From IMG/VR virus record IMGVR_UViG_3300025684_000051, positions 1 to 29,831 of that record: DNA of 29,831 nucleotides, one strand, 5' to 3'. The notes below the pieces were generated by a model. That model was not told the DNA's origin, searched no databases, and saw only the letters and a list, made by a program, of their open reading frames with translations. Each line of letters starts with the position of its first letter. Within the stretch, counting starts at the first letter, position 1. Shown in pieces: positions 1 through 29,831 of this stretch. The position numbers and the translations under genes are program-made. This DNA is from a virus.

Positions 1-3000
1 TCTATTCTGTATAGCATATCTTCCAAGGCATTTCTGAAATCTGTCCCGTAATGAGACTCTATCTTATTCATATTGTCGCTAGAGAAAATGGCATCGGCAT
101 TCTTCTTCCACTCTGAAATATACTCAGCCCTCTTTACGTCGTCAATAATTCTCTCGACATCTTCAAAAATCGAACCAAAAGTCCATTTTGATTTTGGTCC
201 AACCCATGAATCTGTAGTGCCGGTTAATTCTTGAAGATATGTTGCGTATTCTAGCATTCTTGGATTGGATAATACAATATCGTTTAGTGCTTTAGCGTCG
301 GCCTCGCTTATCCCTAACAATGAATTTGTATTTCCAGATTTTAAGTATAAGTAAGCCCTTAATGCCTGGTCATTTGTATATTTAAGATATCCAGAGCTTT
401 TTGGCATAGAAACTTTTACATCCTCATATTCCCTGTTTAAGTCTTTGAAGTCTCTAGTTATTTTTTGTCTAGCATGGGTCATAGCTACATAAGCCCTATT
501 CAATGGCTCTGTGAGATATTTCTCAAAGAAAGCTTTTTGAGCATCACCTTCTTTTCCTTTTCCTAAGAAAGAATACCAAAAACCAGTAAAATCTTCAGCT
601 GAAGGAGACATAAACCTGAACTTCTTCTTTCTTCTATCAGAGTTAAGTCTAGCTGTAGATTCTGATATTTGCTCATCTATACTTATTCCAGTTGCTTTTT
701 TAAGTATATTCGCAGTTACATACTCAAGATTAGCTCTATCGGTCTTTGACTCTGGATTACTTCCTAAACCATTTTCTTGAGTAAATGCCTTAGACGCGCT
801 AAATATCCTAGCGCCATCTTTTTCAGCTACAGTTCTAAGTTCCTTGTACCTTCTACCGGTTAAATGTGTCTTATAATCAACGTCTATATTCTTGACTCCA
901 TTCATTATAAGCCTAACACCTCTCGAATCTATGTCTCTTGCGTAATACGAATCTACAATACCTCCTCTATACCTATAATTGCTTGATGGCATCTTGCCTG
1001 TAATCGCAGACATTGCCGCTTGAACGTCATAACTCGATGTTGTTACGGCATGTTCTATTTGAACGTAAGCCCGATGCCTTGCATTTGGATCTTGTTTTTT
1101 CTTTTCATTAATAGAGATAGTTGACTTATCGCCACGAATCAAAGTGTTTTCACTTATCATACTGTGATTTTTACTTATCTCAACTAAATTTTTAGTGCCA
1201 GCTCCTGTATTGATTAATGAGTATGTTGTATATGCTACTGCTTCTGAATATTGCTCTTTAGTAAGGCTTGGGTCGGACAACATGTCATTGAGTCCAGATA
1301 TGATAGTGTTTCTGATATTTAACTTTAAGCTATTATACTTTTTAGACTTTTCGATAATCCCCTCGACGAATTTAAGTCTAGTTTCGTAATCTTGCCCTAC
1401 TGTTCTCCTGAGATATGCATTTATCTCTGAACTAAGTAGATTTGAGAAGAAAAGCTTATTATCTACGCTTTCCAGTTTATCAAACTCACTCCTTGTATTA
1501 TTTGCATATCTTTTAGTTCTGTCTGAAATATTAAATTTTCCTGGGCTAACTTTTGATCTGTTATCTGCATCGTAGTGAAACACATACTTAGCTATATCTT
1601 TGGTTAGATTATCATTGTTAATCAGGTTTGATATTGCATCATAAGCTTTTTGAGAGTACTCCGATAATATTCTAGAGTCCTTCTTGTTTTTGTATATTTC
1701 AGCTAGTCCCTTTAAAACGGATTTAGCGTCAACTCCTTTTTTATTAAAAACACCTTTTATTCCCGGGTGCATCATTAACAACGTACTAGCCTTTGATCTA
1801 GTCGCCCTAAGCTCGTACAGTTTTAATACCATCTTAAAGAATGTATCAGACAACTCTTCGTCATTCATTATCTGAGACATCATGTAGTTTCCATACCTAT
1901 ACAAATCCTCATCGCTATCCAATGACTCTATTGTTTCTTTGATGTTTTCTTCAGTTATATTTAATTCAGAGTCTATAACGTTAAACTTAGGCCTTGTAAA
2001 TGTCTTCCCAGTAGAAAGCATGTTTTTACTTCTTCCAGCTCCAAAATCAACTATCATTTGAGCTGGGATACCCATCTCCTCCATTATTTTTCTTCCCTCG
2101 GTATTAGTTATCAGCTTTCCAATTTGTCTTAACGTTGCAAGTCTTAAATTAGCCTCGTCACTCTTACCTCTTAAAGAATTATTAGTGCCATCTTCGTTGA
2201 TACCAAGCATCGACAGAAATTCAGATTTGTTAAATTCCTTTTTAAATTTAACAATTCCAGAACTTGCTCCAGTAACTTTCTTTCCTGTCTTAGCTACACC
2301 TTCTTCAAACTCCCTTTTTAAGCGTCCTGTACTTGGGTTTACTTCTGGTCTAGTTAAATCAACTTCATAAAACTTATCCATAAGTAAGCGCTTCATATTC
2401 ACACTTATTCCTCTTCCCTCGGCCGACGCAGGGTCTAGCACATAGTTTGCATCTGGCAATATGTTGTAAATATCTTCAGCGGCATCAAATATTATCTTAG
2501 CAGACGAGTTTAATTCATCTGCATTTAATTGCCCAGTCTCTTTGAGGAATCTTTCTTCTCGTATCTGAAACTTTTCAGATAATGACTCAGTAACTAAATT
2601 ACTTGTGTCTCCGAAGAACATTTTAGCCTTTTCACTAGTGTTAAACTTAGACCTTACTTCTGCAGATGCTTTTGATTCGAACTTCTTGTCTTTGAATATA
2701 GATATTGGATCTATCAAAACATCTCCCTCATCAAACAACACATGATCAAATGCTTCGTCAAAATTATCTTGATAAGCTATGTCATATCCAGCTTCATAGT
2801 CGTCAGTTCTAACATTATATTGCTCCTTCTTGTATTTAGTACTGTTTGCCAGGTTAAGAGCCTCCTGCCTAACCTTGTCAGTCAAGTAACCGTTCAGTTT
2901 TTTCAGCGAAGGGTCGTAAGTTTTTAGTCTATGAGCAAGACCTGTTTTCCCTCCCCATCCATCTATAACATCATCAATGAATGATTCTTTTTCATATTCA

Positions 3001-6000
3001 GAAATTTTAGCAGCACCCATTACGTCTTTAGCGTTGTACTCTATGAGCTGTTTTAATGCTTTTCTAACTTTTGGTCTGTTAAGTATCTCTGGCTTATTCT
3101 CTAAATCCATTGTTTCTTGAGCCTCGCTGAAGACAGATTTCCAAGAGCTCGGGCTTTTTTCTTGCTCATCCGCAAGATTCATTATAGCCTCTGTATATTG
3201 ATCCATGTCCAGCTCTCCATTTCGAAACATTCTGTCGTACATAGACCTCTTTTCAGAGATGCTAAGCAAATTCCCATTTCCTCTTGACAGCCCACCACTA
3301 AGTTTGTTTTTGCTCTTCCAAAAGCGCTCAAATGACCTAAGATGGTTAATCGTAGATTTGTTAATATCTGAATTCTCGGATGCATTGTTTAATTCTCCAA
3401 ATAATTCTTTTTGACCTATCCTAAACAAGTCCTTAAATCTGAAAGAAGAGTCTATGTCTGAATCATTAATATATCCTATTGAGTTTAAATCGGTATACAG
3501 ATTCATCAACTCTTCGAACCTCAACCTTTTATCGCCTCTAGTTATTTCGTCGTATTGCTTTAACCTTTCCTGAATTTCAGTATTTAATCTTTCGTTATTT
3601 ACCCTCGTATCTTTTCTGTTAAATATCTTATACTCTATTCTAGCCTTCAATTCGTTATAAGCCGCATCTACAATAGCTTCATCCATGTTTTCGATGTTTT
3701 TCATCGTCATCCAATGGTGTCCGATTTCGTGTTTCGGAGATGTAGCAGCTAAAGACTTATCTAGATCACTCATGTTTTCATCCTTCAGAACGGACCTTAT
3801 CTTATAGTCATTAACAAATGTGAGCCCATAGTTAGCGTTTGCGTTAGCTGTTAGTATTTCAAGAGCTGTATTAGGGTCTTTTCTTATGCTTTCTATGAAT
3901 TCAATCCTTGATTTTTCAGGGAGATTATTAAATGACTCGTCATTCTGTAATTGAAATATAAACTTATCAGCAAGTTTATTTAAGGTTTCGGCATCTACAC
4001 TGTCATTATTCTCAATTTTTTTAGCAATATCATTAGCTGCGTTTACAAGACCCATATAATTATCTCCCATCTTGAAGAAAGACCTTCCGGATTTTGCTTT
4101 TGAAACGCCTAAAGCCGCCTTATAGTTGGCCATAAGAAGAAAATCCTTTGCGTTCAAATCAGCATCTTCTTGACTGGTTAATTTAGCTATTCTATCATTA
4201 TATGAGTTGTACTCTTTATTCAGATCAGTAAGTATAGATTGTACATTTTTGTTTTGTACTTTATCTCCTTGCGTTATCTGCTTTCTTGTTAACTCAGTAA
4301 CTTTATTTTTTACCTGAGCTTTCTTGTATGTCAAGTCATATACCTCTTGAAATTCCTCACTGCTCAATGACAGCATTTTAGCCCATGCGTTCTGTTCGTT
4401 TATAGATATTTCGCTAAGCAATTTCTTATACTCCTTATCAGCTTCCATCCTTTGGCCGTAGTCTAAACTCCTATCATTTAAGATGTTTTTATAGTTCATT
4501 AACTTGCCAAATTGCTCTTTTCTTCTAGCGTTCTCTATAGCGTTGTTCACCAATGGAGACATTGCGGATATGGAACCAAAAGCGAGACCGCTTCCCCCTG
4601 AATTTATCAAGATATTGGCAGTCATATCCCATGTTGTTATATCCGATATGTCTTGCAGTATTTTGTCAAAACTTCTTCCTTGACCAAGCCACAAGTTATC
4701 TACTAGAGTTTTATCCATGTATGCTATTGGGTATTCCTCAGAAAGTTCTCCAAGCGTCATACCACCTCCCTTTTTAAGTAGTTTCAACTTGCTTGGGTCG
4801 TAAAATGCTTTCCCTATTTTAGTTCCTTCGAATAGTTTGCCTACTCCTGGCACTTTCAACTGCCCAGTACCCAATGCTCCAGCCAATCTAGTTATTCCGC
4901 CTTCAATTACACCACTCATTACAGCAGAATAAAATATGTCGCTATCGGTGTGTTTTAACATCTCTAGCTTTTCTATTTCCGATATTATCTGATCTTTATT
5001 GTCTGCGTTTTCTGGGTTTTCTAATGATTTAGTAAGGTGCTCTATTTGAGCTCCTATCATCCTATTATAATATTTTAAGTCTGATTTCTTTTGCCCTACT
5101 TGTGATAAGCCAAATATCGTAGGAGCTATAACTTGACCTCCAGGCAACGCATACATCATGACGCTGCCTACTGTAGATGCTGCGTTAGAGGCAAGAACCT
5201 CTCCGATATAATCGCCAAATGAAGCTTTCCCAGATTTAAAATCATCTAAATTCAATGGTTGAGCTACATTTTTCCATCTTTCATCAAATGCAGATGTTAT
5301 TTCTTCCTCTAAAGCATCTTCTCTCTCTATGCTTGCAGACGGAGTGATTACAGATAAACCAATCACAGTTTTACCTAGAAACCTATCGACGTCTCTAAGC
5401 GCCATTGATGATTTCCGGTAATCAGTAGCTGCTGCTTTCTTAATATTTTCATCAAGATTAACGTCATCAGTCATAGACATTAACTCTGTACTATCTTTTA
5501 TTAACTCATCTCTTAACCTACCTATCGCGTTAAGCTTGTTATATATATTGTTGTAAGAAGGAGAATTATATATATCCATAAATTCGTCAAGCAGAACCAT
5601 AGCTTCAGACTCACTTGTCGCTGACTTTATTTTTTGCTCTATATTAAGTAGCTGGCTATTAAAACTTTTAACTTGATTAACAAGTAGTTCTACATTATTA
5701 TTATCCCTAAAGTCACTTATCGTTTTTCTTTTTAGGTCTAATTTAGCTTTTAATGCAAGAGCTTTGTCGATGTTAGAACTGGAATCGTATTGGAGAAGAT
5801 TTCCAACTACCTCTTGTTCGGCCTCGTCGTACTTCCTCATGAAGTATCCAAGCTCTTTATCTCTTTTCTGGTTTAATGATTCCTTCTCGACATATAATTC
5901 ATCTACTCTTTCTGATATTTTTTTTGACTCAGATTCACTTTCAGATTCATAAGTCTCATTTAATAAAGCGTTTATTTCGTCCTGCTTGCGTATTATTTCG

Positions 6001-6890
6001 TTATCAATAGGACCTAACACATCGGACTTATATTTATCAACCTCGTCGTTTATAGATATAGTCTTAGTTCTTTCCACAGGTATCGTTCCTCTACCAGTAT
6101 CTACATATTCTGTATAGGTTTCTGTTCTGGTTAGCTCTGGGGCTTTACTGCTTACAGTCACCTCTGGAACCTCTAACCCTCCGGTTTGACCTCCTTGTTT
6201 AACGCTAACTCCATACTTTGGGTTGTTAATGAAGCTTTGTAAGTAAGATGATGGAGATACGTTGTACTGGTTTGCAGCTTCTATGATTTCCTTTTTGTTA
6301 TACATGACCCCTTCGTCGCCTAGTCCAGGTCCTTTTATTATATATGAATCTCCAAGTGTTTTATCAAAATCTTTGTCAATGAAGGTAATATCCTTATACT
6401 CTTCTATTGTTAACGGAATCTTTTTGCCGTCCTTTATGTAAAAATCAGCTATAGCAGTATCAGATTCAATGTATTCTTCTTGAGAGCCCAAAGAACCATC
6501 TTCCAATTTGGATTCCGTAACGGGTGCTTGAACTTCTTCCGCAGTCGCACCCGTATCCTGCGGTGTTGTCTTTGATTGCTTCGGAACAGCTCCTTGCATT
6601 AAAGCCTCAGACATAGCCGCATACTGATCCTCTTGACTTGGTGTCTTTGCTGTAGGAGTTGTTTCTTCTACTTCTGGTTTTTGTTGAGTAGATGTCATAC
6701 CTTCACCTACACCCAAAAGTACTTTAAAGTCATCTATACTCTTTGTGTATCCTTTTGATTTGAAAAGATTATAAGAGTCGTTAAGAGCCTTTTCGTTTGA
6801 ATTTATCAGTTTTACGTAGTCATCTATACTCTTTGTGTATCCTTTTGATTTAAAAAGAGTATAAGAGTCGTTAAGAGCCTTTTTGTTCAT
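1..6890 (-). CDS. giant virion/ejection protein with HEIGH motif (C-terminus cut by window edge)
   Basis: An open frame starts at the ATG at 6890 and runs off the left edge, giving 2296 complete codons with no stop that I could find by reading it. The N-terminus holds two 30-residue repeats (LFKSKGYTKSIDD core). A Pro/Thr/Gln-rich linker follows, then long charged helical stretches. Three small-residue-rich, membrane-like segments lie near residues 560-590, 650-675 and 755-785. A zinc-metallopeptidase signature HEIGHH is at residues 1054-1059. The last visible part (about 2095-2290) resembles the large polyvalent-protein-associated domains of marine phages. It is the third and largest of three consecutive genes of increasing size, like T7 gp14-gp15-gp16. 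I infer that it is packaged in the capsid and ejected with the DNA, perhaps degrading peptide or protein barriers. A tape-measure role is less likely because no tail tube gene is seen. The start overlaps the upstream stop by 20 bases. Confidence 0.8.
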   Translation of the reverse strand, partial: MNKKALNDSYTLFKSKGYTKSIDDYVKLINSNEKALNDSYNLFKSKGYTKSIDDFKVLLGVGEGMTSTQQKPEVEETTPTAKTPSQEDQYAAMSEALMQGAVPKQSKTTPQDTGATAEEVQAPVTESKLEDGSLGSQEEYIESDTAIADFYIKDGKKIPLTIEEYKDITFIDKDFDKTLGDSYIIKGPGLGDEGVMYNKKEIIEAANQYNVSPSSYLQSFINNPKYGVSVKQGGQTGGLEVPEVTVSSKAPELTRTETYTEYVDTGRGTIPVERTKTISINDEVDKYKSDVLGPIDNEIIRKQDEINALLNETYESESESESKKISERVDELYVEKESLNQKRDKELGYFMRKYDEAEQEVVGNLLQYDSSSNIDKALALKAKLDLKRKTISDFRDNNNVELLVNQVKSFNSQLLNIEQKIKSATSESEAMVLLDEFMDIYNSPSYNNIYNKLNAIGRLRDELIKDSTELMSMTDDVNLDENIKKAAATDYRKSSMALRDVDRFLGKTVIGLSVITPSASIEREDALEEEITSAFDERWKNVAQPLNLDDFKSGKASFGDYIGEVLASNAASTVGSVMMYALPGGQVIAPTIFGLSQVGQKKSDLKYYNRMIGAQIEHLTKSLENPENADNKDQIISEIEKLEMLKHTDSDIFYSAVMSGVIEGGITRLAGALGTGQLKVPGVGKLFEGTKIGKAFYDPSKLKLLKKGGGMTLGELSEEYPIAYMDKTLVDNLWLGQGRSFDKILQDISDITTWDMTANILINSGGSGLAFGSISAMSPLVNNAIENARRKEQFGKLMNYKNILNDRSLDYGQRMEADKEYKKLLSEISINEQNAWAKMLSLSSEEFQEVYDLTYKKAQVKNKVTELTRKQITQGDKVQNKNVQSILTDLNKEYNSYNDRIAKLTSQEDADLNAKDFLLMANYKAALGVSKAKSGRSFFKMGDNYMGLVNAANDIAKKIENNDSVDAETLNKLADKFIFQLQNDESFNNLPEKSRIEFIESIRKDPNTALEILTANANANYGLTFVNDYKIRSVLKDENMSDLDKSLAATSPKHEIGHHWMTMKNIENMDEAIVDAAYNELKARIEYKIFNRKDTRVNNERLNTEIQERLKQYDEITRGDKRLRFEELMNLYTDLNSIGYINDSDIDSSFRFKDLFRIGQKELFGELNNASENSDINKSTINHLRSFERFWKSKNKLSGGLSRGNGNLLSISEKRSMYDRMFRNGELDMDQYTEAIMNLADEQEKSPSSWKSVFSEAQETMDLENKPEILNRPKVRKALKQLIEYNAKDVMGAAKISEYEKESFIDDVIDGWGGKTGLAHRLKTYDPSLKKLNGYLTDKVRQEALNLANSTKYKKEQYNVRTDDYEAGYDIAYQDNFDEAFDHVLFDEGDVLIDPISIFKDKKFESKASAEVRSKFNTSEKAKMFFGDTSNLVTESLSEKFQIREERFLKETGQLNADELNSSAKIIFDAAEDIYNILPDANYVLDPASAEGRGISVNMKRLLMDKFYEVDLTRPEVNPSTGRLKREFEEGVAKTGKKVTGASSGIVKFKKEFNKSEFLSMLGINEDGTNNSLRGKSDEANLRLATLRQIGKLITNTEGRKIMEEMGIPAQMIVDFGAGRSKNMLSTGKTFTRPKFNVIDSELNITEENIKETIESLDSDEDLYRYGNYMMSQIMNDEELSDTFFKMVLKLYELRATRSKASTLLMMHPGIKGVFNKKGVDAKSVLKGLAEIYKNKKDSRILSEYSQKAYDAISNLINNDNLTKDIAKYVFHYDADNRSKVSPGKFNISDRTKRYANNTRSEFDKLESVDNKLFFSNLLSSEINAYLRRTVGQDYETRLKFVEGIIEKSKKYNSLKLNIRNTIISGLNDMLSDPSLTKEQYSEAVAYTTYSLINTGAGTKNLVEISKNHSMISENTLIRGDKSTISINEKKKQDPNARHRAYVQIEHAVTTSSYDVQAAMSAITGKMPSSNYRYRGGIVDSYYARDIDSRGVRLIMNGVKNIDVDYKTHLTGRRYKELRTVAEKDGARIFSASKAFTQENGLGSNPESKTDRANLEYVTANILKKATGISIDEQISESTARLNSDRRKKKFRFMSPSAEDFTGFWYSFLGKGKEGDAQKAFFEKYLTEPLNRAYVAMTHARQKITRDFKDLNREYEDVKVSMPKSSGYLKYTNDQALRAYLYLKSGNTNSLLGISEADAKALNDIVLSNPRMLEYATYLQELTGTTDSWVGPKSKWTFGSIFEDVERIIDDVKRAEYISEWKKNADAIFSSDNMNKIESHYGTDFRNALEDMLYRI
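6728..6887 (-). repeat. in-frame tandem duplication, 90-base period
   Basis: Two copies of about 70 bases (6728-6797 and 6818-6887) are almost identical, with about three or four mismatches, and start exactly 90 bases apart. They encode two copies of a 30-residue unit with core LFKSKGYTKSIDD at the N-terminus of the giant protein. The copy nearest the start codon also overlaps the last 20 bases of the upstream 492-residue gene. The near identity suggests a recent duplication or gene conversion. Confidence 0.9.
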
Positions 6891-8349
6891 TCGTTGTAAG
6901 TGCTTGTGTTTGTGAGGGTTCGGTTTCGTCGTAAATGCTTGTGTCTATTTGATTTACACTTTCTGAAGCAGTTGTTGTTGTCTGTTTTGATTCGCCCATC
7001 ATTTCACGAACAACATTACGCATTCCTTCTAGCTTTGTTTTTTGGTTATTTAGTATATTCGATATTACATTTCTAACATTGGCTTCATTCATGTCCCTAA
7101 CCATTATTTGATTACTCATGGTATGGTTGCCTACTTTATTCTCTATATTATACCCAGTTATTTCGCCACTACTTTCGTCTATTACAGGGCCTGTAACACT
7201 GAATCCCATGCCATTTAAGTTATTGACCAACAAGGCATCGACAACCTGCTTAAACTTAGGACCATTTTTCACCATTCCAGATAGATTAGATAACCATGCT
7301 GTGTCTTCTAGTGTGGTTAAACTTTGCATAAGCGCGTTATACTGACCGTTAATTATTTTATCCAAATCAGTTGGTTTATATCCTGATCCTGTTGTTTGAG
7401 ATGCTCTTATTTTAGCGTACTCCAAAGCTCTTTCTTGTTCAGCTTGCATCTTATAAGCCGCTGCAAAATCAGAGTAGTTATATACGGAACCAATTGCCTT
7501 TTGGCCCAACTCATTCGCCATTAATGTGAATTGCTTGTCAGAGAAAGCATCTTTCTCCTCTATAGATTTAAATCCGCTAACTACATCTGGGTCATTATAA
7601 TACATGGAACCTCCTTCTCTTTGAGTAGCTGAAGATATTTCATTACTATATAGATAACTCCATAACTCTGGGCTATCTTCGTTCTTCAACATGAACGTAA
7701 ATTGTTCGGAAAGTTTTTTCTCTATTTCTTCAACTGACAATCCAAGTTTTGCAGCTTCCTTAAATATCAAATCTGCCTTTGTTCTAAAGGCTGAGTTAAG
7801 AGCTTTGTAATCTTCTTCATAATCGCTTCTCTTCATAAATTTTGCCGATGATAATTCATCTAAAGAAACTTCCCCAAAATCTCCAGTTATTTTTAAATCT
7901 AATCCTTTGCCTTCTATTTTTATGCTTTTATCTCCTCTAGTCATGGCCGCTTTTAAAGCCCCAAGTTTTGAAGAGTTTCTCATATCCCAATCCTTATCGT
8001 CTATCTGAGCCAATTCTCCTAATCTACCAATAGTTCCTTTTATAGATGAAACCTTTCTAAGCATTTTAGCTTGTTCGGATGCGCTTGCAGTAGCGAAGCT
8101 TCCTTCTGTTATAATAGCATCAATAGACGATTGTAGTCCGTCCATCATCCTTGCGTCAAGTCCAGCTATAGCGCTTAGGTCCGAAGATTTATACGCTCCA
8201 GCCAATGCCTCGTCTTGCTCTTTAGCTATCCTTTCTTTCTCTAGACGCTCTTCTTCAAACTTTTGTTGAAACTTACCAAAAGACTCTTCAAACCCTTTTG
8301 AAAAAGCCTGAGTATCTGCAAAGTATACTTGTGGATTCCTATAACTCAT
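6871..8349 (-). CDS. putative internal virion (ejection) protein, 492 aa
   Basis: The protein is soluble-looking and mostly helical. It begins with a SYRNPQ segment and a highly charged coiled-coil stretch (about residues 15-48, rich in E, K and Q). It ends in a polar Thr/Ser/Gln tail from about residue 455. No catalytic motif, signal peptide or membrane segment is visible. It sits between a 311-residue protein with an N-terminal hydrophobic segment and the giant protein, with a 2-base gap upstream and a 20-base overlap downstream. By position and composition it matches the middle member of a T7-like internal-core trio (gp15 position). I remember similar proteins in marine Bacteroidota phages next to the same neighbours. 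The ejection role is inferred, and a plain capsid cargo protein is the main alternative. Confidence 0.7.
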   Translation of the reverse strand: MSYRNPQVYFADTQAFSKGFEESFGKFQQKFEEERLEKERIAKEQDEALAGAYKSSDLSAIAGLDARMMDGLQSSIDAIITEGSFATASASEQAKMLRKVSSIKGTIGRLGELAQIDDKDWDMRNSSKLGALKAAMTRGDKSIKIEGKGLDLKITGDFGEVSLDELSSAKFMKRSDYEEDYKALNSAFRTKADLIFKEAAKLGLSVEEIEKKLSEQFTFMLKNEDSPELWSYLYSNEISSATQREGGSMYYNDPDVVSGFKSIEEKDAFSDKQFTLMANELGQKAIGSVYNYSDFAAAYKMQAEQERALEYAKIRASQTTGSGYKPTDLDKIINGQYNALMQSLTTLEDTAWLSNLSGMVKNGPKFKQVVDALLVNNLNGMGFSVTGPVIDESSGEITGYNIENKVGNHTMSNQIMVRDMNEANVRNVISNILNNQKTKLEGMRNVVREMMGESKQTTTTASESVNQIDTSIYDETEPSQTQALTTNEQKGS

Positions 8350-8351
8350 AA

Positions 8352-9287
8352 TTAATCTCTAAATTGAATATTTGGAACAAATCTTTGAGATCCATATTTA
8401 GCCCCAAATGCAGATATGTCACTCCCTAAAAGCGTTGATTGAAATTGATTTGCATAGCCACCTCCTATTGGGAGAAATTGATTAGGATTGCTAAATGGGT
8501 CTGAATAAGATGACGAATATCCTAAACCAGCTGATCCACTGCCAGAACTAGAAGACTCTTGACTTCCTCCACCACCTCCGCCACCTAAAGCTTGAGCTCC
8601 AAAACTAGCAGCAGTACCTATAAGTTGTCCTAAGGCTTGGTTTTGTTGAGATTTTGCTTGAGCCTCTTGAGCCCTATATTGTTGAGCTAAACTCGAAACC
8701 CTATCTAATTGAGAGATCTCCCTTTCTTCTTGCATCGACATTCTTTCAAGCTCACCAGATCCCATTAATTCTTGCCGTCTCATTTCTGATTGCAATTGCA
8801 TTTGCTCCATAGACTGTTGTCCTCTAGCTCTTAATTCAGCATTTCTAGCTTCTTGAGACTCAATACTTGCGGATATACCTTGTTTGCTTGCTGCAGCTTC
8901 CCTAGCTAGTGCAGTAGCCCCTCCAGCTCCAGCTCCAGTAGCTCTCAACGTATCTAATGCCGATGCCAATCCAATATCAGTTTGTTCTGCTTGCATTTGA
9001 GCTGCTTGAGTAGCTACCTGAAGATTTGCAAATGGATTAGACACCATACTTGTTAAATCCTGAAGGTTAGCATAAGGATTTGTTATGTCTTGTCTATTAG
9101 CTTCCAATCTCTTTAAATCAGCTTCATATTGCCTTGCAGCTCTCCTTGATTCCCTCTTTTGCTTTCCGGCCCCAATCATTCCTATTAGGCTTCCGACACC
9201 TTGCGCTATACCCGCAATTGCCATTGGAGCGATGGCCTGTTGATACTCTACAGAGCCAAATAAAAACTCTATTATTGCCTCGTTCAT
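8352..9287 (-). CDS. putative small ejection protein with N-terminal hydrophobic helix, 311 aa
   Basis: An Ala/Gly/Ile-rich hydrophobic segment at about residues 19-41 could insert in a membrane. It is followed by a basic stretch (KQKRESRRAARQ) and then long Gln/Ala/Glu-rich amphipathic sequence, with ATGAGAGGATALA near residues 115-127. A poly-Gly run and Ser/Gly-rich linker follow (about 233-258), then an aromatic and Asn-rich C-terminus. A short membrane-active helix plus a coiled coil is the usual make-up of T7 gp14-type internal proteins, which are ejected first and form a pore in the outer membrane. It is the first and smallest gene of the ejection trio. The gaps to its neighbours are 1-2 bases, so translation is probably coupled. 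The family assignment is by pattern and context. Confidence 0.7.
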   Translation of the reverse strand: MNEAIIEFLFGSVEYQQAIAPMAIAGIAQGVGSLIGMIGAGKQKRESRRAARQYEADLKRLEANRQDITNPYANLQDLTSMVSNPFANLQVATQAAQMQAEQTDIGLASALDTLRATGAGAGGATALAREAAASKQGISASIESQEARNAELRARGQQSMEQMQLQSEMRRQELMGSGELERMSMQEEREISQLDRVSSLAQQYRAQEAQAKSQQNQALGQLIGTAASFGAQALGGGGGGGSQESSSSGSGSAGLGYSSSYSDPFSNPNQFLPIGGGYANQFQSTLLGSDISAFGAKYGSQRFVPNIQFRD

Positions 9288-9288
9288 A

Positions 9289-10536
9289 TTAGTAACTATT
9301 TATATTGTAATTCGTTGATACAGAGAACAACTCTTTATATGTTGTCTCTGACGTTTGTATTCTCATTTTAGCATAAAAACCTTTTACTCCAGATATATCC
9401 GCACCAAACACAACCTCATTTTCAGAAGGTGAAGTAGCGTTCATGATGTTTGAGTAATATTTGTTATGTGTTTTCTGGAATGCGGATATAATCAAATCCT
9501 GGTTATTTATGTCGTATGCAAGTATGTTTTCAGCTTGGTCAGAGTCGGTTTCTATATTAGATATATTCCACGAATCTGAACCTTCATAATTGATTGTGAC
9601 TAAGTTTTTGTTCGCTGATGGTTCCGCATTAAATATAAAATCTACATATGAATCGTATGATGTCCCGTAGAATGAGCTATATGATGAAGAAGAATTATGC
9701 TTATATATGTTGTTGTTTTTAAAAGTATAATAATCACCATCTAAGCTTCCAGAGAATCCTTCTGGTATATAACTAAAGAAAGATGTCCATCCATTAGAAT
9801 ACTCGTCAAAAACTACAGTGTAGCTATCGCCATCGCTAACAAGTCCAGGTTCCGAAAGAGAGAGCATGTTCAACACAAGATCCTTATTATATATATCCCA
9901 AGAAAGATGTATTTGCTCCCCAAATCCAAGCCTACCAGATAAATTGTCTCTAAAGAAGGCGCGCATTCCATAATTAGATATTTCAGTTATCCCATCAGAA
10001 GATAGTCTAAGTACAGCTCCTTTAGGTTTATCTACAAAGTATTTCCTTCCTGCGTAGTGACAAAAACTCTCTGGATTTTTACCTATGCCGTAGTTAGTTC
10101 CGTAAGAAACGACGTCGCCAAGAAAAACTCTTGATGTCGTTGAAAGGGGAACTCCTTCTGCGGTATATATAATATCCTTGTCTATAGGCACGTATCTTAC
10201 TTTTTCTTCTTGGAATATGTTCAGTTTTTGGTCCTCAGCAAAAAGCTTTTGAATAGACCCCTGTTGAATATCGACGGATAAAGTTATCGGCTTGTCGATT
10301 GGAAATTGATTTGTGTTGTTTACTCCTGTTCTATCGTTGTATATTCCTGAGTATATCAATGAATTTGACCTTCTCTGAGACCTATAATCTTCATTGGTTA
10401 TATGAGCCCTTACGCCATAATCCATGGCCTTAGAATTGAATCCTCCTTTTATTCTAGATTCTTCTATATGCCAATTTTTTGTTTCTGATTTTACAATAAT
10501 CGTATTGTAGTACTCAACTTGAATTATCTTAGCCAT
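9289..10536 (-). CDS. C-terminal half of a stabilisation/muzzle-type tail protein, 415 aa
   Basis: The protein is beta-rich. After a short leader it has the segment WHIEESRIKGGFNSKAMDYG (residues 22-41), then NSLIYSGIYNDRTGVN and a run reading SIQKLFAEDQKLNIFQEEK. Further on are PESF, GRKYFVDKPKGAVLRLS and GITEISNYGMRAFFRD. I remember this series from the C-terminal part of the large structural proteins annotated as stabilisation or muzzle proteins in crAss-like and marine phages, where it follows the sequence seen here in the 938-residue neighbour. Here it is a separate gene, starting 7 bases after the upstream stop and in a different frame. It probably assembles with that neighbour at the tail end or nozzle. 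The last 200 residues are Ser/Tyr/Asn-rich and look faster evolving. Confidence 0.7.
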   Translation of the reverse strand: MAKIIQVEYYNTIIVKSETKNWHIEESRIKGGFNSKAMDYGVRAHITNEDYRSQRRSNSLIYSGIYNDRTGVNNTNQFPIDKPITLSVDIQQGSIQKLFAEDQKLNIFQEEKVRYVPIDKDIIYTAEGVPLSTTSRVFLGDVVSYGTNYGIGKNPESFCHYAGRKYFVDKPKGAVLRLSSDGITEISNYGMRAFFRDNLSGRLGFGEQIHLSWDIYNKDLVLNMLSLSEPGLVSDGDSYTVVFDEYSNGWTSFFSYIPEGFSGSLDGDYYTFKNNNIYKHNSSSSYSSFYGTSYDSYVDFIFNAEPSANKNLVTINYEGSDSWNISNIETDSDQAENILAYDINNQDLIISAFQKTHNKYYSNIMNATSPSENEVVFGADISGVKGFYAKMRIQTSETTYKELFSVSTNYNINSY

Positions 10537-10543
10537 ATATTAA

Positions 10544-13360
10544 TTATGTTGTGCATGCAGCAGGAACAACCTCCCAATAACCAACGCTTCCGCTAGACGT
10601 TTGCAAAACAGTCCATTTACCAGTCCATCCTCCTAAAGGATCTGCATACCATCCTGAAGAGGCTAATTTATTTCCTGTTGGAGTTCCGTATATTTGAGGA
10701 GCATCAACCAAAATACCTCCTGAGTCAGGCACATCTGTATAGACTTCAAGTGTAAATGGAAACGAGTTTATATTTACGCAAGCGTTCGCTGTGTTTCCGT
10801 AATTTATGTATGAATCATATTTTAATGTTACAGCTTGTAGACCACCTGACTCTACGCTAACATACGCCGTGAGCTGTTTCTCAACATTAAAACTACCATC
10901 TGTAAGCGTTACATCAACAATTATAGACTCGCCATGATGACCATTTAAACTCGATAAAACAGTGAATATTATCTCATTGCCAGATATATTTGAATCAAGT
11001 ATGTTTTGTTGCGATCCATGGTCATGGGTTTCCGTGTGTGATACGGTGAGCCCTGCGGTGCTAGCGTTTTCATCTGCAGATCCAGTCGTTATGCTTAACC
11101 TAAACGCCTCTTCTCCGACTGCGAGTGTATTATCTATAACAACATAAGACAACCCTGAAATTGTTGGTGCTGCGTTTGTTATTGTTATGTCTTTCCCTAA
11201 AGTTGTAAAATTTAATCCAGTAACATCTACTCCGTATAGATTGTTTGCTGGTGTAGTTGAATAAACAAAATCTTGTCTTGTCTTTAATTTATAATAACCA
11301 TCATTAGCATCTCTCTCTATTTCAAATTGAGATGTTGATTCATTTAAAGTAAAGGTAACATAAGGCATATCAAGACCACTAGACGAGTCTATAGCTCTTA
11401 TTCTTGCTACGTAGCTGCCAGATGGAGTTGCCTCAGAGACTGTAACGCTACCTTCTGATCCAGTTCCGAAATTGCTCGGCTCTATGAGTATTGTTTGTAT
11501 TTGAGCATTCGCAGCTTGATTAAGCTCTTGTATTATCCCGGATGTCGATGTTTCATAATAAATATCTAATGTAGATCTAAATGGCTCTGTTTCGAAAACT
11601 GATAAAGTTCCAGTGAAAGGAGTGTTGACGTTGTTTCCAATAATACCTTCTTCTAATTTTCCTAAAAGATGCATTTTTGATTGTTGGTAAAATCCATAAG
11701 AAGTATTTGTTCCAGCATCAAAAATACCATGAGCCTCAGCTGTACCTATGCTTTCTATGTTATACAACCCTTCATTTGAAATTTTTTGATAAATAGCTTG
11801 ACCATATTCCCCTATTCTGTAGTTTATTAATTTGGGGTATAATCTAGACTTTGTAGGGTATAAATCATCAGCGTCAATAGAATCGTCAGTGTTTCTTGGT
11901 ACTTTATTAATATTATCGTTATGTATTGTTATATATCCTCTTGTTATTCCTGGATTATAAACATTGTAGTATTCTTGCTGAGTTTGTTTAACAACAACCC
12001 TATAGCTGTACCACCCTAAATCATTTGGCAAATTAGAATCTGCGTTTTCGTCTCCGAGTACATGTTCACCAGTTATATCTTGATTGAAAACAATTTTTAT
12101 ACTATCTCCTATCCAATTCAAGGAATCAAATTCCTCTGGTTTAGCAGAAACAGTAACTCTGGATGTGTCTGACAATATCACTGGAGAAGTCCTACCATAT
12201 TTATCAGCAAGTATAATGCCAACCTCGTAATCCCTACGTTGTTTTACAGAGTGATGCGGATAATCTAAGCCATGCTTTTCCGTGCAGTAAACATCGTAAT
12301 CAACAGTTGGCAAGCTATAGTTTTCTGTAAAATTACCATATATTATTCTATTACCAGCTAATTCCTGAGCTAACGCATTTATTGGCACGTTATCAAATAC
12401 CCTTGTTATCTGATCTTCCGGAAGAGTTGATTTTGGTGGTGTTGATTTGTATATGTATTCGTATGTTTGAGAAGATATTTGATTATCAACAAGCCTTATT
12501 GTGTCTACAATTCTTACAGCATTTGAGTCAGACTCTTTATACAGAACATCTATAGATACAATTCCGTAGTCAGCTACTGGATTTGTAGAAGGTAGGTTTA
12601 TTCCTAAAGTAGCCGTATTAGCTCTATTTATTGCCTTAAAGTTTTCTGTCGACTCAAGTATTTTTGATTCATCTTCTATACTTATTGAGTTGCTAGAAGT
12701 GGCTCCGCTGCCAAGCTCGAAGACAATTTGAGAAAACGGAGAAATTATAGAGTACTCATTGTCTATAAACTTATACCTATAAGCAAAGCGCACAAACTCC
12801 TCCTCCATTAACTTAGATTCTATTTCTGAGTCATACCCAGCTTGAGCTGTAGGAGCTAAATGTGGAGCGTATTTTGCAACAGATATTTTGACTTCAGAAT
12901 CATAATAACCACTATCATCTAAAGCCTTTGATACACTTATTCTTCTTGGTTGATTCCGATTGTCTGTCCAAAATAATAAATCCTCTAAAAGGTTAATCCC
13001 AGTTATTTTATCATACAAGTTGAAATTTAAAAATAAACCAGAAACAAGAACATCAACGTTAGGAACACCATCCCTCTTTAGGAATATGTAATTTCCGGTA
13101 GACCCATTAGTTACAAACCAAAATATCCTATTGTTTTTGTCATCAAAAAAACTACCTATTACTTTATGATTGTTTTCTCCTGAAAGAACTTCGATATGTA
13201 AATCGTTTCCTTTTGAATTATGAACAACACCAACATTACTCCCGTCAGATTTTGTTATCTGAACATTTAAAGCATCAATATATTCTCCTTGAGGAATAAG
13301 CCTATCGTCAAGGTCTTTATTCATCTTGCCAGCAAGGAAAGTATTTTTAATTTCAGGCAT
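10544..13360 (-). CDS. stabilisation/muzzle-type tail protein, N-terminal part, with cadherin/Ig-like C-terminus, 938 aa
   Basis: The N-terminus reads NTFLAGKMNKDLDDRLIPQG followed by EYIDALNV. This is the opening pattern of large tail structural proteins of crAss-like and many uncultured marine phages, variously called stabilisation or muzzle proteins. The first 600 residues look like a beta-propeller-type virion component (repeated blocks such as NRIFWFVTNGS and DLLFWTDNRNQPRRIS). From about residue 635 to 720 there is a cadherin-like stretch (VSEATPSGSYVARIRAID, then FEIERD). An Ig-like segment (about 728-838) and a Gly/Ser/Trp-rich end closing in VPAACTT follow. I infer a ring or nozzle at the tail tip with exposed adhesive domains. 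The C-terminal domains seem to be inserted where relatives continue into the sequence now found in the next gene. Confidence 0.75.
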   Translation of the reverse strand: MPEIKNTFLAGKMNKDLDDRLIPQGEYIDALNVQITKSDGSNVGVVHNSKGNDLHIEVLSGENNHKVIGSFFDDKNNRIFWFVTNGSTGNYIFLKRDGVPNVDVLVSGLFLNFNLYDKITGINLLEDLLFWTDNRNQPRRISVSKALDDSGYYDSEVKISVAKYAPHLAPTAQAGYDSEIESKLMEEEFVRFAYRYKFIDNEYSIISPFSQIVFELGSGATSSNSISIEDESKILESTENFKAINRANTATLGINLPSTNPVADYGIVSIDVLYKESDSNAVRIVDTIRLVDNQISSQTYEYIYKSTPPKSTLPEDQITRVFDNVPINALAQELAGNRIIYGNFTENYSLPTVDYDVYCTEKHGLDYPHHSVKQRRDYEVGIILADKYGRTSPVILSDTSRVTVSAKPEEFDSLNWIGDSIKIVFNQDITGEHVLGDENADSNLPNDLGWYSYRVVVKQTQQEYYNVYNPGITRGYITIHNDNINKVPRNTDDSIDADDLYPTKSRLYPKLINYRIGEYGQAIYQKISNEGLYNIESIGTAEAHGIFDAGTNTSYGFYQQSKMHLLGKLEEGIIGNNVNTPFTGTLSVFETEPFRSTLDIYYETSTSGIIQELNQAANAQIQTILIEPSNFGTGSEGSVTVSEATPSGSYVARIRAIDSSSGLDMPYVTFTLNESTSQFEIERDANDGYYKLKTRQDFVYSTTPANNLYGVDVTGLNFTTLGKDITITNAAPTISGLSYVVIDNTLAVGEEAFRLSITTGSADENASTAGLTVSHTETHDHGSQQNILDSNISGNEIIFTVLSSLNGHHGESIIVDVTLTDGSFNVEKQLTAYVSVESGGLQAVTLKYDSYINYGNTANACVNINSFPFTLEVYTDVPDSGGILVDAPQIYGTPTGNKLASSGWYADPLGGWTGKWTVLQTSSGSVGYWEVVPAACTT

Positions 13361-24962: not shown

Positions 24963-25403
24963 TTATCTATCTTTATCTTTTAACATATCATCCATAGCTT
25001 TATTCATGACTTTGTCTGTATATGTTTTGTTTTCATAGAATACATTAACTCTTGATGTTGGCAAATCTTCTTTACCTAAGAGTATCCTGTACATCCTTGT
25101 TATAAGCATTTTTGTTTTTAGTGAGACGGCATATATATTATGCTTTCCAGATTTTCTGTCAGCAGATCTCCACACAACAACCCATCCATTCTTCTTAAAC
25201 CTAGACCAACGATGCTTGTCCCATGTATATATGTAGGTCCCTTCCTTAAAGTCATTTATAGTAAATCGCTCTAAAGCGTCAAGGTATATTAATAGTTCAA
25301 GATCGCTTTCAGTTATGCCATTTGTTTTAGCAGCCCATTTTCGAACTAATCTATAATATTTTAAAAACTTAATGTCCCTAAGATCCTCAACACTAATGTT
25401 CAT
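24963..25403 (-). CDS. winged-helix-like protein, 146 aa
   Basis: The helical first part (residues 13-45, KYYRLVRKWAAKTNGITESD then LELLIYLDALERF) is followed by a probable recognition-helix and wing arrangement. TINDFKEG, HRWSRFKKNGWVVVWRSAD and KHNIYAVSLKTKMLITRMYR (88-107) follow it. That layout fits a MarR-like winged helix, and I remember similar proteins from marine phages. The basic residues around 64-104 could contact DNA. It follows groES with a 4-base overlap. A late regulator or a DNA-binding packaging factor would both fit. No operator is visible nearby. The fold is inferred by eye. Confidence 0.6.
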   Translation of the reverse strand: MNISVEDLRDIKFLKYYRLVRKWAAKTNGITESDLELLIYLDALERFTINDFKEGTYIYTWDKHRWSRFKKNGWVVVWRSADRKSGKHNIYAVSLKTKMLITRMYRILLGKEDLPTSRVNVFYENKTYTDKVMNKAMDDMLKDKDR

Positions 25404-25660
25404 TCCACAAGAACTATATCTCTCTGCTTAATAACAGAATATTGATTATTATCAAAAAGAATATTGTGCCCTGAGTGCTTATCGTAATATATATTATCCG
25501 ATTCCTTTATTCCTTGTGTTAGATTCCCACAACTTATAATAACACCTTTCAAATACCGTATATCATCTGTTGTGTTATCTGTAAGAATAAAGCCTCCAAC
25601 CTGTTTTGGCTCCTCCTTAATAGGCTTGATAATTACATAATCATTTATTGCTTGCATCAC
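25400..25660 (-). CDS. groES: phage GroES co-chaperonin, 86 aa
   Basis: This caps the GroEL chamber. It has the GroES order: strand YVIIKPIKEEP (8-18), mobile loop ending GGFILTD (22-28, matching GGIVLTG of bacterial GroES, which docks on the apical domains), LKGVIISCG (38-45), a shortened middle with no clear roof loop, and QYSVIKQRDIVLVE at the C-terminus (compare VLIMSESDILAIVE). At 86 residues it is about 10 shorter than E. coli GroES, mostly in the roof region. The start lies inside the end of groEL with a 20-base overlap, which suggests coupled translation. The gene order groEL then groES is the reverse of the common bacterial groES-groEL order. Two adjacent Met codons make the exact start uncertain by one residue. 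Confidence 0.85.
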   Translation of the reverse strand: MMQAINDYVIIKPIKEEPKQVGGFILTDNTTDDIRYLKGVIISCGNLTQGIKESDNIYYDKHSGHNILFDNNQYSVIKQRDIVLVE

Positions 25661-27212
25661 CTATTCTTTTATTTGATATAATACAATCTGCTGACACAAT
25701 TGTTAAAGCAACACTAACCGCATTTTTTAAAGCTGTCTTGGTCACCAATGCAGGATCGATAATCCCTTTCCTAACCATGTTAACCATATTTCCAGTAGTA
25801 ACATCAACGCCTCTTCCGGACTGTTTATTCACTAATGGGAAATCAGATGATATTCCAGCGTTTTGTAATATTGTATGAAACGGAGCTTGAATTGCTCCTA
25901 ATAAAATCTTTTCAGCATCTGAAGACGGTTTTATTTTTAACGATGCATCCAACAAAGCTACCCCTCCTCCAGGAACAATACCTTCTTGTAGCGCAGCTTT
26001 AACCGCATATATTGCATCTTCAACCCTGTCTTTCTTCTCCTTTAATTCTACCTGACTCTGAGCCCCTACCTTTATAATTGCAAGAGAGCCATTTAACATA
26101 GCTAATCTTTGCTCTAGTTTCTTTTTAATATAAGGATTCTCTTCACTCTCTATTTTTTCAACAACAGTTTTGACCCTATCATCAAGACCATCTATCTCAT
26201 CAGCGACCTTTAGAACTGTGTTTTTATCAGTTGTAACAGCTTTTAACACTTCCCCTAATACAGAAGCATCCATTAACTCTAAATCATCCCCTAGAGACTC
26301 GTCAATGAGTTTTGCGCCAGTCAATAAAGCTAAGTCTTGTAGTGTGTCCAGCTTTGTTGGCCCGAACCCAGGCAAGTCCACTATATTAACTTTTATATTT
26401 CCTTTTACCTTGTTCATTAGTAACGCAGACATCGGCTGTTGCGATACCTCCCCGACAATTAAAAGGCTTCTCTTTTCTTTTATAATATACTCTAATATAT
26501 TCTGTATCTTTCTGACACTCTCTATTGGTGTTTTACTTATCAATATTAACGGATTATCAAGCTCGCATTTGTCTTTCTCTACATTTGTTGATAAATGCTG
26601 TGACTTTAATCCTGAATCAAAGCTAACTCCTTTTTGAAGGTCAATATATGTTTTATCAGTTTCTGACTCCTCCATTAAGACAATTCCATTTTTGCCTACA
26701 AACCTATATCCCTGAGCTATAATACGACCTAAGTCTTCATCGTTATTTGTAGATATAGAGGCTACATCTTCTAAGTTTTCCTCAGTAACATCTTTCTTTA
26801 TAGAGTCAATGTACTTAATAACTTTTTCTAGTGCAGTTTTAGTTCCGTTTTTCAACTCCCTAAAATCAAAATGACTTTGCCTTAACCGAAACAGAAGAGC
26901 ATCCGCTAATACTGTTGCGGTTGTTGTTCCGTCCCCGGCTTGTTTAACTGTGTTCCTTGCAGCTTCTTTTATCAGTGTAGCCCCCATATTTTCTACAGGA
27001 TCTATCAATATAACACTTTCAGCTACAGTAACCCCATCTTTTGTTATTATTGGTTTTCCAAGTGCATCTTCATAGATAACGCACTTTCCGGAAGCGCCAA
27101 GAGTGGAGCTGACCGCTTGGGCCAGCTTCTTCACTCCTCGACTTATTGCATCACTTGCATCCTTACCGAATGTCAAGTCTTTAACGATCTCACTAGGATT
27201 ATTGTATTCCAT
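25641..27212 (-). CDS. groEL: phage-encoded chaperonin GroEL (Hsp60), 523 aa
   Basis: A full-length group I chaperonin subunit, which folds protein in a closed chamber using ATP. Equatorial motifs: ITKDGVTVAE with Asp59 (E. coli Asp52), AGDGTTTATVLA with Asp94 (Asp87), KDRVEDA with catalytic Asp399 (Asp398), and EGIVPGGGVALL. Intermediate and apical parts include ENMGATLIKEAA and VDLPGFGPTKLDTLQDLALL. Differences from bacterial GroEL: the nucleotide-binding TLGPKG becomes TLGASG (37-42), the apical substrate and GroES-binding segment GYLSPYF becomes GLKSQHL (201-207), and the C-terminal Gly-Gly-Met tail is absent. All ATP-hydrolysis residues I checked are present, so it should be active. No CIRCE inverted repeat is seen upstream. 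Phage chaperonins are known from Pseudomonas phage EL and from marine viromes. Confidence 0.95.
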   Translation of the reverse strand: MEYNNPSEIVKDLTFGKDASDAISRGVKKLAQAVSSTLGASGKCVIYEDALGKPIITKDGVTVAESVILIDPVENMGATLIKEAARNTVKQAGDGTTTATVLADALLFRLRQSHFDFRELKNGTKTALEKVIKYIDSIKKDVTEENLEDVASISTNNDEDLGRIIAQGYRFVGKNGIVLMEESETDKTYIDLQKGVSFDSGLKSQHLSTNVEKDKCELDNPLILISKTPIESVRKIQNILEYIIKEKRSLLIVGEVSQQPMSALLMNKVKGNIKVNIVDLPGFGPTKLDTLQDLALLTGAKLIDESLGDDLELMDASVLGEVLKAVTTDKNTVLKVADEIDGLDDRVKTVVEKIESEENPYIKKKLEQRLAMLNGSLAIIKVGAQSQVELKEKKDRVEDAIYAVKAALQEGIVPGGGVALLDASLKIKPSSDAEKILLGAIQAPFHTILQNAGISSDFPLVNKQSGRGVDVTTGNMVNMVRKGIIDPALVTKTALKNAVSVALTIVSADCIISNKRIGDASNK

Positions 27213-28407: not shown

Positions 28408-29831
28408 TTAAGCAGGACCACCATCAACGATAGTCCATCCGTATGTTACTTGTAGAGATGTTCTTGCTGCTTCTGCTGCTCCACCTGCGGTGTATTTAGA
28501 ATTTCCAAAGCTTATTGATAACCCGCTTGTTGGTGCTTGTGCCTCCCACGCTATTAATGTAGCATCGTATGTAGCGGTAGGTATGGTAACGCCTACTGCG
28601 AAGTTTGTAAAGTTAGTGACTTGGTCGATGTCCCACGCACTAATATCTAAATTGGTTAATGATGTGCAGCCGTAGAATGTAGATACCATATTCGTAACAC
28701 TACTTGTATCCCATAAACTTACATCTAAGGTTGTTAAAGATGAGCAGCTAAAGAATGTATTAAGCACACTCGTAACACTACTTGTATCCCATCCACTCAC
28801 ATCTAATGTTGTTAATGATGAGCAGAAGGTGAATGTAGATTGCATACTAGTAACACTACTTGTATCCCATAAACTAACATCTAAGGTTGTTAAAGATGAG
28901 CAATTTAAGAATGTCTGATACATAGTAGTAACACTACTTGTATCCCAAGAGCTTACGTTTAATGCGGTTAAAGATGAGCAATCTCGGAATGTCGCATTCA
29001 TATTAGTAACACTACTTGTATTCCAATAACTGACATCTAAATCGGTTAATGATGAGCATCCATAGAATGCAATACTCATATTCGTAACGCTACTTAAATC
29101 AGGCGCATCAGAAGCGGTTACGTTAGTCAAATTATCGCAGCCGTAAAAAGCATATAACATTGAAGTCCAACCTACATTACCCCAATTACGAATATCAATT
29201 AACTTAGACCTGTCTCCTGTGTTATTGAAACGTATCTGACCTGTTGCGGCAGTAACCTTAACGTCATACGTTCCAACAGAAGGATATGTATGCGTTTGAG
29301 TGCCTGACAAACCAGCATCCGAACTACCATCTCCCCAATCAACATCATAAGTACCTACCCAAGGCAATGTAAATTGGTCTGAACTACTGGTACCTGCATT
29401 ATCTGTTTTAACAGTAATTATGAATTCAGCAGTATCTGTTTGTCCACTATCTGTTATACTCCAGCCAAAACCTCCTAACGCTTTATCTGTTGTTAGTTTA
29501 CGTTTAGCAGCATAGCTTAAATAGCTATTCTGACTACTTCCGAAGTTAATGCTTATAGTAGGGGTGTATCCAACGCCATCAGGGTAAGCTGTTTGTAATT
29601 GAGATTCCCAATTGTTTAGGATGTCATCGTATGTAGCAGTAGGTATAGTAACGACGTCTGCGAAACTTGTAAAGCTAGTGACTTGGTCAATATCCCATAA
29701 ACTAACGTCTAAATCAGTTAAGGATGAGCAATTTTGGAATGTCTGATACATCTGCGTAACACTACTTGTGTCCCAAGAACTTACATCTAATGTTGTTAAG
29801 GATGTGCAGTTACGGAATGCATAACCCATAT
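28408..29831 (-). CDS. BspA-type (DUF285) repeat and PKD-like surface/fibre protein, N-terminus beyond window edge
   Basis: At least 474 codons are visible. The first in-window ATG (29829) lies within a repeat, so the real start is outside. Order of visible domains: two DUF285 repeats (DTSSVTQM type, residues 1-50), a cap ending in WSITDSG (about 44-134), a PKD-like domain with YDVDWGDGSS (161-170) and HTYPSVGTYDVKV (180-192), seven DUF285 repeats (231-408), and a second cap ending in WTIVDGG. DUF285 repeats (PF03382) are common in bacterial surface proteins and some phage fibres. I infer a receptor-binding or tail fibre protein exposed on the virion. The repeat number could change by recombination. 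A moron-encoded host surface protein is an alternative. Confidence 0.75.
   Translation of the reverse strand, partial: MGYAFRNCTSLTTLDVSSWDTSSVTQMYQTFQNCSSLTDLDVSLWDIDQVTSFTSFADVVTIPTATYDDILNNWESQLQTAYPDGVGYTPTISINFGSSQNSYLSYAAKRKLTTDKALGGFGWSITDSGQTDTAEFIITVKTDNAGTSSSDQFTLPWVGTYDVDWGDGSSDAGLSGTQTHTYPSVGTYDVKVTAATGQIRFNNTGDRSKLIDIRNWGNVGWTSMLYAFYGCDNLTNVTASDAPDLSSVTNMSIAFYGCSSLTDLDVSYWNTSSVTNMNATFRDCSSLTALNVSSWDTSSVTTMYQTFLNCSSLTTLDVSLWDTSSVTSMQSTFTFCSSLTTLDVSGWDTSSVTSVLNTFFSCSSLTTLDVSLWDTSSVTNMVSTFYGCTSLTNLDISAWDIDQVTNFTNFAVGVTIPTATYDATLIAWEAQAPTSGLSISFGNSKYTAGGAAEAARTSLQVTYGWTIVDGGPA
28605..29139 (-). repeat. coding tandem repeats, 78-base (26-residue) unit
   Basis: Seven consecutive repeats encode units of the form CSSLTTLDVSxWDTSSVTxM (x varies), one cysteine each. 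The first unit has 27 residues and the following five have 26. The DNA is also repetitive, with the same phrases for DTSSVT reused in nearly every unit, which points to recent amplification. A further two units lie near 29680-29831. Confidence 0.9.

Follow-up and report, generated by a model that had tools for sequence, protein, structure and literature searches.

The window, that is, the whole 29,831-base stretch of DNA that we analysed, is a fragment that forms a virus record of its own. The minus strand carries all its main genes: those for chaperonins, terminase, portal, capsid and ring proteins, a muzzle split over two genes, a pair of smaller genes and a giant open reading frame (ORF), with the capsid and ring protein labels resting on gene position. 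Its terminase shares 66% identity with that of the environmental podovirus MW202828 and 32-47% with those of cultured Flavobacterium, Cellulophaga and Tenacibaculum phages, and the presence of the muzzle domain PF25729 ties the window to the crAss-like phages. Upstream of the terminase gene are genes for GroEL (25641-27212) and GroES (25400-25660); a methylated GroEL peptide has been reported from free virions of phi38:1, a relative (PMC13288928). A gene at 28408-29829 encodes a protein with numerous repeats of the form LDVSxWDTSSVTxMxxTFxxCSSLT, which by eye look DUF285/BspA-like; in Flavobacterium phage elemoA a DUF285 gene lies close to the terminase gene. The features that concern us here are as follows.

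10544..13360, minus strand: N-terminal part of the muzzle protein (best stretch of phrog_14478 at positions 1-343)
9289..10536, minus strand: C-terminal part of the muzzle protein, a separate gene (PF25729, crAss_MUZ_C, E=1.2e-9; phrog_14478 positions 904-1275)
8352..9287, minus strand: 311-aa gene, putative ejection partner with a hydrophobic Gly/Ala-rich N-terminus (position and sequence; same order in L095)
6871..8349, minus strand: 492-aa gene, putative ejection partner (position only; same order in L095)
3..6890, minus strand: putative giant cargo/ejection protein (ORF with 2296 visible codons, open at the contig edge)
6717..6881, minus strand: N-terminal tandem module of the giant, two copies of ~28 aa (ALNDSYxLFKSKGYTKSIDDFxxLI), residues 4-58 (translation; related modules in relatives)
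6477..6590, minus strand: conserved low-complexity linker KTTPQDTGATAEEVQAPVTESKLEDGSLGSQE, residues 101-138 (BLASTP match to L096)
3216..4103, minus strand: predicted zincin-type metallopeptidase region, residues 930-1225, with its core (residues 996-1210) at 3261-3905 (alignment A4, model, leave-out profile)
3714..3731, minus strand: HEIGHH, residues 1054-1059, with H1054 and H1058 as proposed His ligands and E1055 as proposed general base (conservation; predicted helix)
3510..3512, minus strand: Glu1127 in FEELMNLYTD, proposed third zinc ligand (conservation)
3..722, minus strand: start of a conserved helical C-terminal domain, residues 2057-2296, continuing past the contig (conservation in relatives)

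The giant ORF comes after the muzzle genes and the two smaller genes. L095 has the identical order, and the succession of muzzle, smaller genes and giant recurs with variations in cultured relatives. The sequence-only reading, which had placed the giant among ejection genes, thus drew a fair inference. The muzzle is a single gene in MW202828 and other relatives and two genes in the window (9289-13360) and L095 (10449-13998); because the split is common to both, we regard it as a feature of the clade and not as a sequencing error. Searches of Pfam and PHROG gave no family match for the 492-aa gene, and a search for a cultured relative of the 311-aa gene found none.

Relatives suggest that about 440 aa of the giant are missing beyond the contig end: the closest one, L114 (81% identity), is complete at 2739 aa, which is also our estimate of the full length. 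Pfam and PHROG searches with the window giant returned nothing useful. Across the giants (window; L094-L102, L113-L192) we observed small N-terminal modules that are seemingly interchangeable between phages, followed by the conserved linker, which ends at about EDxSLxSQ and beyond which the proteins align poorly. Typing these modules by regular expression gives undercounts. Module and linker are perhaps a docking or ejection leader. The giant of MW202828 (L094 744-12320, 3859 aa) has an N-terminal module in common with the window giant and carries two HEFGH motifs whose surroundings look unlike the window zincin family.

Two further proposals of the sequence-only reading concerned the body of the protein. 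The domain that it took to be of polyvalent type near the visible C-terminus is real and strongly conserved, but none of the proteins in an 11-protein alignment gave a match to a polyvalent-associated Pfam family at E<=0.01. Its membrane-like segments are weak, the best 19-residue Kyte-Doolittle mean being 1.33 (residues 577-595). A reading as RNA polymerase was also considered and rejected: by pattern search only, a DxDxD-type motif is absent from the visible window protein, and none is conserved in the giants.

The central observation of the sequence-only reading was HEIGHH, the HExxH pattern with an additional His, and this motif is real and far above chance. With 16 His and 188 Glu among its 2296 residues, the giant is expected to contain 0.009 HExxH, and the pattern appears in 0.9% of its shuffles. 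We then asked how the motif fares in relatives. The whole giant found no close relatives when used as query against viral contigs, and conservation of the zincin alignment was too low for it to serve as a contig query. A portal search yielded 40 longer contigs, and the giant had matches in 8 of these; searching with a profile for the conserved C-terminal domain then gave 80 loci. The 66 homologous giant ORFs of 2000 aa and above include 64 with HExxH, where 0.55 would be expected over the whole set, although some of these are near copies (L157/L166, L138/L139), so that the independent cases are fewer than 66. Nearly every giant has exactly one copy of the domain. In the closest homologue, L114, the motif is kept as HEVGHH, together with FEELMNLYSD, contrary to the lack of conservation in close homologues that the sequence-only reading had named as a refutation. 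A chance HExxH might be suspected in a helical, highly charged protein lacking a Pfam match; with HExxH and a third Glu kept across dozens of distant relatives, a chance origin is refuted, and we assign it a negligible probability.

A candidate third ligand came from an alignment (A4) of 44 sequences. Since these were picked by and centred on HExxH, the invariance of HExxH in A4 is by construction; the only other invariant column, which was not selected for, is the Glu corresponding to E1127 of the window, and one Gly and one Tyr column exceed 90%. In a held-out test, the profile matched 23 of the 29 giants left out of it, and the matches kept the Glu without exception (23/23) and HExxH in the expected columns in 21 cases, the exceptions being L125 and L128. 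The other six gave no profile match despite having HExxH, and may carry domains of other types.

The membership of the window itself is supported by a BLASTP match to L096 (3e-16), inside which both motifs are aligned. When the window and L114 were left out of the profile, it scored window residues 996-1210 at 24.6 bits, compared with 16.9 bits for the best of 999 shuffles that kept HEIGHH, the cut having been chosen under guidance of the motif. The uncut protein was not listed by this profile, an absence that we ascribe to correcting for composition across all 2296 residues. Alignment of two sequences against the zincin family by hhalign aligned one column and was uninformative. In Pfam, the region gave weak recurring matches to Peptidase_M78 and DUF6782, both metallopeptidases; the family found here is absent from Pfam as a model.

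Structure prediction gave the secondary-structure order of a zincin, with the proposed third-ligand Glu on a later helix, and did not return the plain coiled coil without a zinc site that the sequence-only reading had named as the contrary outcome. In the window model, which is of medium quality (pLDDT 70), a hairpin is accompanied by two helices, one bearing HExxH and the other the Glu; the L157 model (pLDDT 87.5) has three strands ahead of the HExxH helix and the Glu on a separate helix. Foldseek found no significant match for the window model in PDB and BFVD, nor for the L157 model in PDB (none at E<=0.001). The nearest candidate, Certhrax (4fxq, E=0.69, TM 0.40), is at most a hint; selecase (4qhj, E=0.15) was seen with the first small alignment, disappeared with larger ones and was dropped. 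With no significant match to a solved structure, the fit to a zincin is one of topology, not of superposition. Together with the conserved site and the candidate third ligand, this order gives good support to the earlier suggestion that a probable ejected protein contains a metallopeptidase domain of zincin type.

A few giants depart from this pattern. The closely related L125 and L128 retain the domain but have lost the first His, the HExxH position reading EELFH, and judging from these residues their copies are probably inactive. Distinct from these, L097 and L098 lack the whole zincin domain. The loss of the first His in one pair and of the domain in the other indicates that the peptidase activity is not indispensable.

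What, then, might the domain do? Our preferred reading, which we hold with moderate confidence, is that the giant is a virion cargo/ejection protein with a gluzincin-type domain whose peptidase processes the giant itself or its cargo partners. The giant would be packed in the capsid of a crAss-like marine phage with the two smaller cargo proteins, and at infection the cargo would exit through the tail of portal, ring and muzzle, as gene order and crAss001 suggest. Zinc would be bound by H1054, H1058 and E1127, with E1055 activating the water; the conservation of these residues is observed and the chemistry is predicted from it. The helical C-terminal domain may be a structural or translocating part. 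The most likely task of the peptidase would be processing of the giant or its partners, either inside the head prior to release or following delivery. The near-universal presence of the domain favours a core task of this kind, and published work on related proteins makes self-processing an equal or better option than host attack. The N4 virion RNA polymerase, packaged uncut despite its zincin domain, counts against processing. As a first guess, we would rank self-processing first and host proteins second as substrates.

The sequence-only reading had proposed an attack on host proteins. That the cell receives an active zincin which cuts defence, envelope or regulatory proteins of the host is possible, though on present evidence rather unlikely. 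It draws on the same domain evidence as processing (HExxH in 64/66, the invariant Glu, the held-out test), and host targets are among the options of Iyer et al. (PMC5512222). Between the window and L114, the zincin region evolves about twice as fast as the rest (dN 0.24-0.29 vs 0.12) while its catalytic residues are unchanged; dS is saturated, however, and rapid change is seen in other linker regions too. A dispensable effector would be compatible with the loss in a few relatives, but one copy in nearly every giant is more in keeping with a core task than with an optional effector. A little less probable still, in our estimate, is a distinct, unmodelled family of virion-borne metallopeptidases, near-universal in the giants of a large marine group of crAss-like phages, that would cut host proteins at entry or time its own activation inside the cell. 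We think it improbable that the fold is kept mainly for structure or assembly, such as encapsidation, with little or no protease activity. Encapsidation of the N4 protein, which is uncut when packaged, depends on its zincin-containing region, and L125 and L128 retain the domain without its first His; yet almost all members retain both HExxH and the Glu, whereas the other columns are for the most part variable. Least plausible among these functional readings, and very improbable, is an HExxH metalloenzyme other than a peptidase, for example a hydroxylase of the alpha-ketoglutarate type. Such enzymes also have HExxH, as noted in the N4 paper (PMC12633501), but the placing of the Glu, on a later helix, is that of gluzincins, and the weak Pfam matches point to metallopeptidases.

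The principle of a zincin domain inside a giant ejected phage protein is known, with precedent in a few other phages. What our comparison would add is that such a domain appears close to universal in the giants of a large, mostly uncultured crAss-like group; a literature search, which was not exhaustive, found no zincin described in crAss-like phages or flavophages. Little is understood about the giant cargo proteins that crAss-like phages have besides the RNA polymerases, and a conserved protease site gives them a testable enzymatic activity. It also offers a test of the 2017 proposal that injected phage proteins are processed by their own zincin domains.

Related proteins are encoded by two cultured phages, the likeness being limited in each case to part of the protein. 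Tenacibaculum phage Gundel_1 gp074 has a C-terminal domain related to the window family (tblastn 6e-6) and HEFGH with a downstream Glu, and its annotation label is 'structural protein'. Flavobacterium phage elemoA gp21, also labelled structural protein, matches the zincin profile at 1.4e-12 though it stood outside the profile.

In crAss001, whose giants are related to RNA polymerase, the cargo genes gp45-gp50 stand after the muzzle gene, the location that the giant gene has in the window. The cargo proteins gp45-gp50 leave through the tail (PMC10172136). The crAss001 paper makes no mention of a protease or peptidase (PMC10172136). The N4 virion RNA polymerase is also a giant that is ejected, and in it a large helical C-terminus comes after an HExxH domain (PMC12633501). 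In layout, its C1-C2 region resembles the window giant, with a zincin and a helical C-terminus, and N4 has two further ejection proteins, as the window putatively does; a pattern search found no polymerase motif in the visible window giant. From the gene order after the muzzle, the crAss001 cargo and the ejected giant of N4, we infer that the window giant is packaged and ejected.

The catalogued polyvalent proteins, whose MPTase domains make up 12 clades, combine an MPTase with further catalogued domains (PMC5512222); the window giant has an MPTase-like domain and, at the threshold given above, no polyvalent-associated Pfam domain beside it in its visible part. Three options are put forward for the polyvalent MPTase domains: cleavage ahead of packaging (P1 DdrB), processing within the head or the cell, and attack on host proteins (PMC5512222). 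Like the window domain, the polyvalent MPTase has an HExxH helix, a Glu on a later helix, and strands and a helix before these (Iyer et al. 2017, PMC5512222), and the phage proteins that carry it are likewise of very large size, have multiple domains and are presumed to enter the cell during infection.
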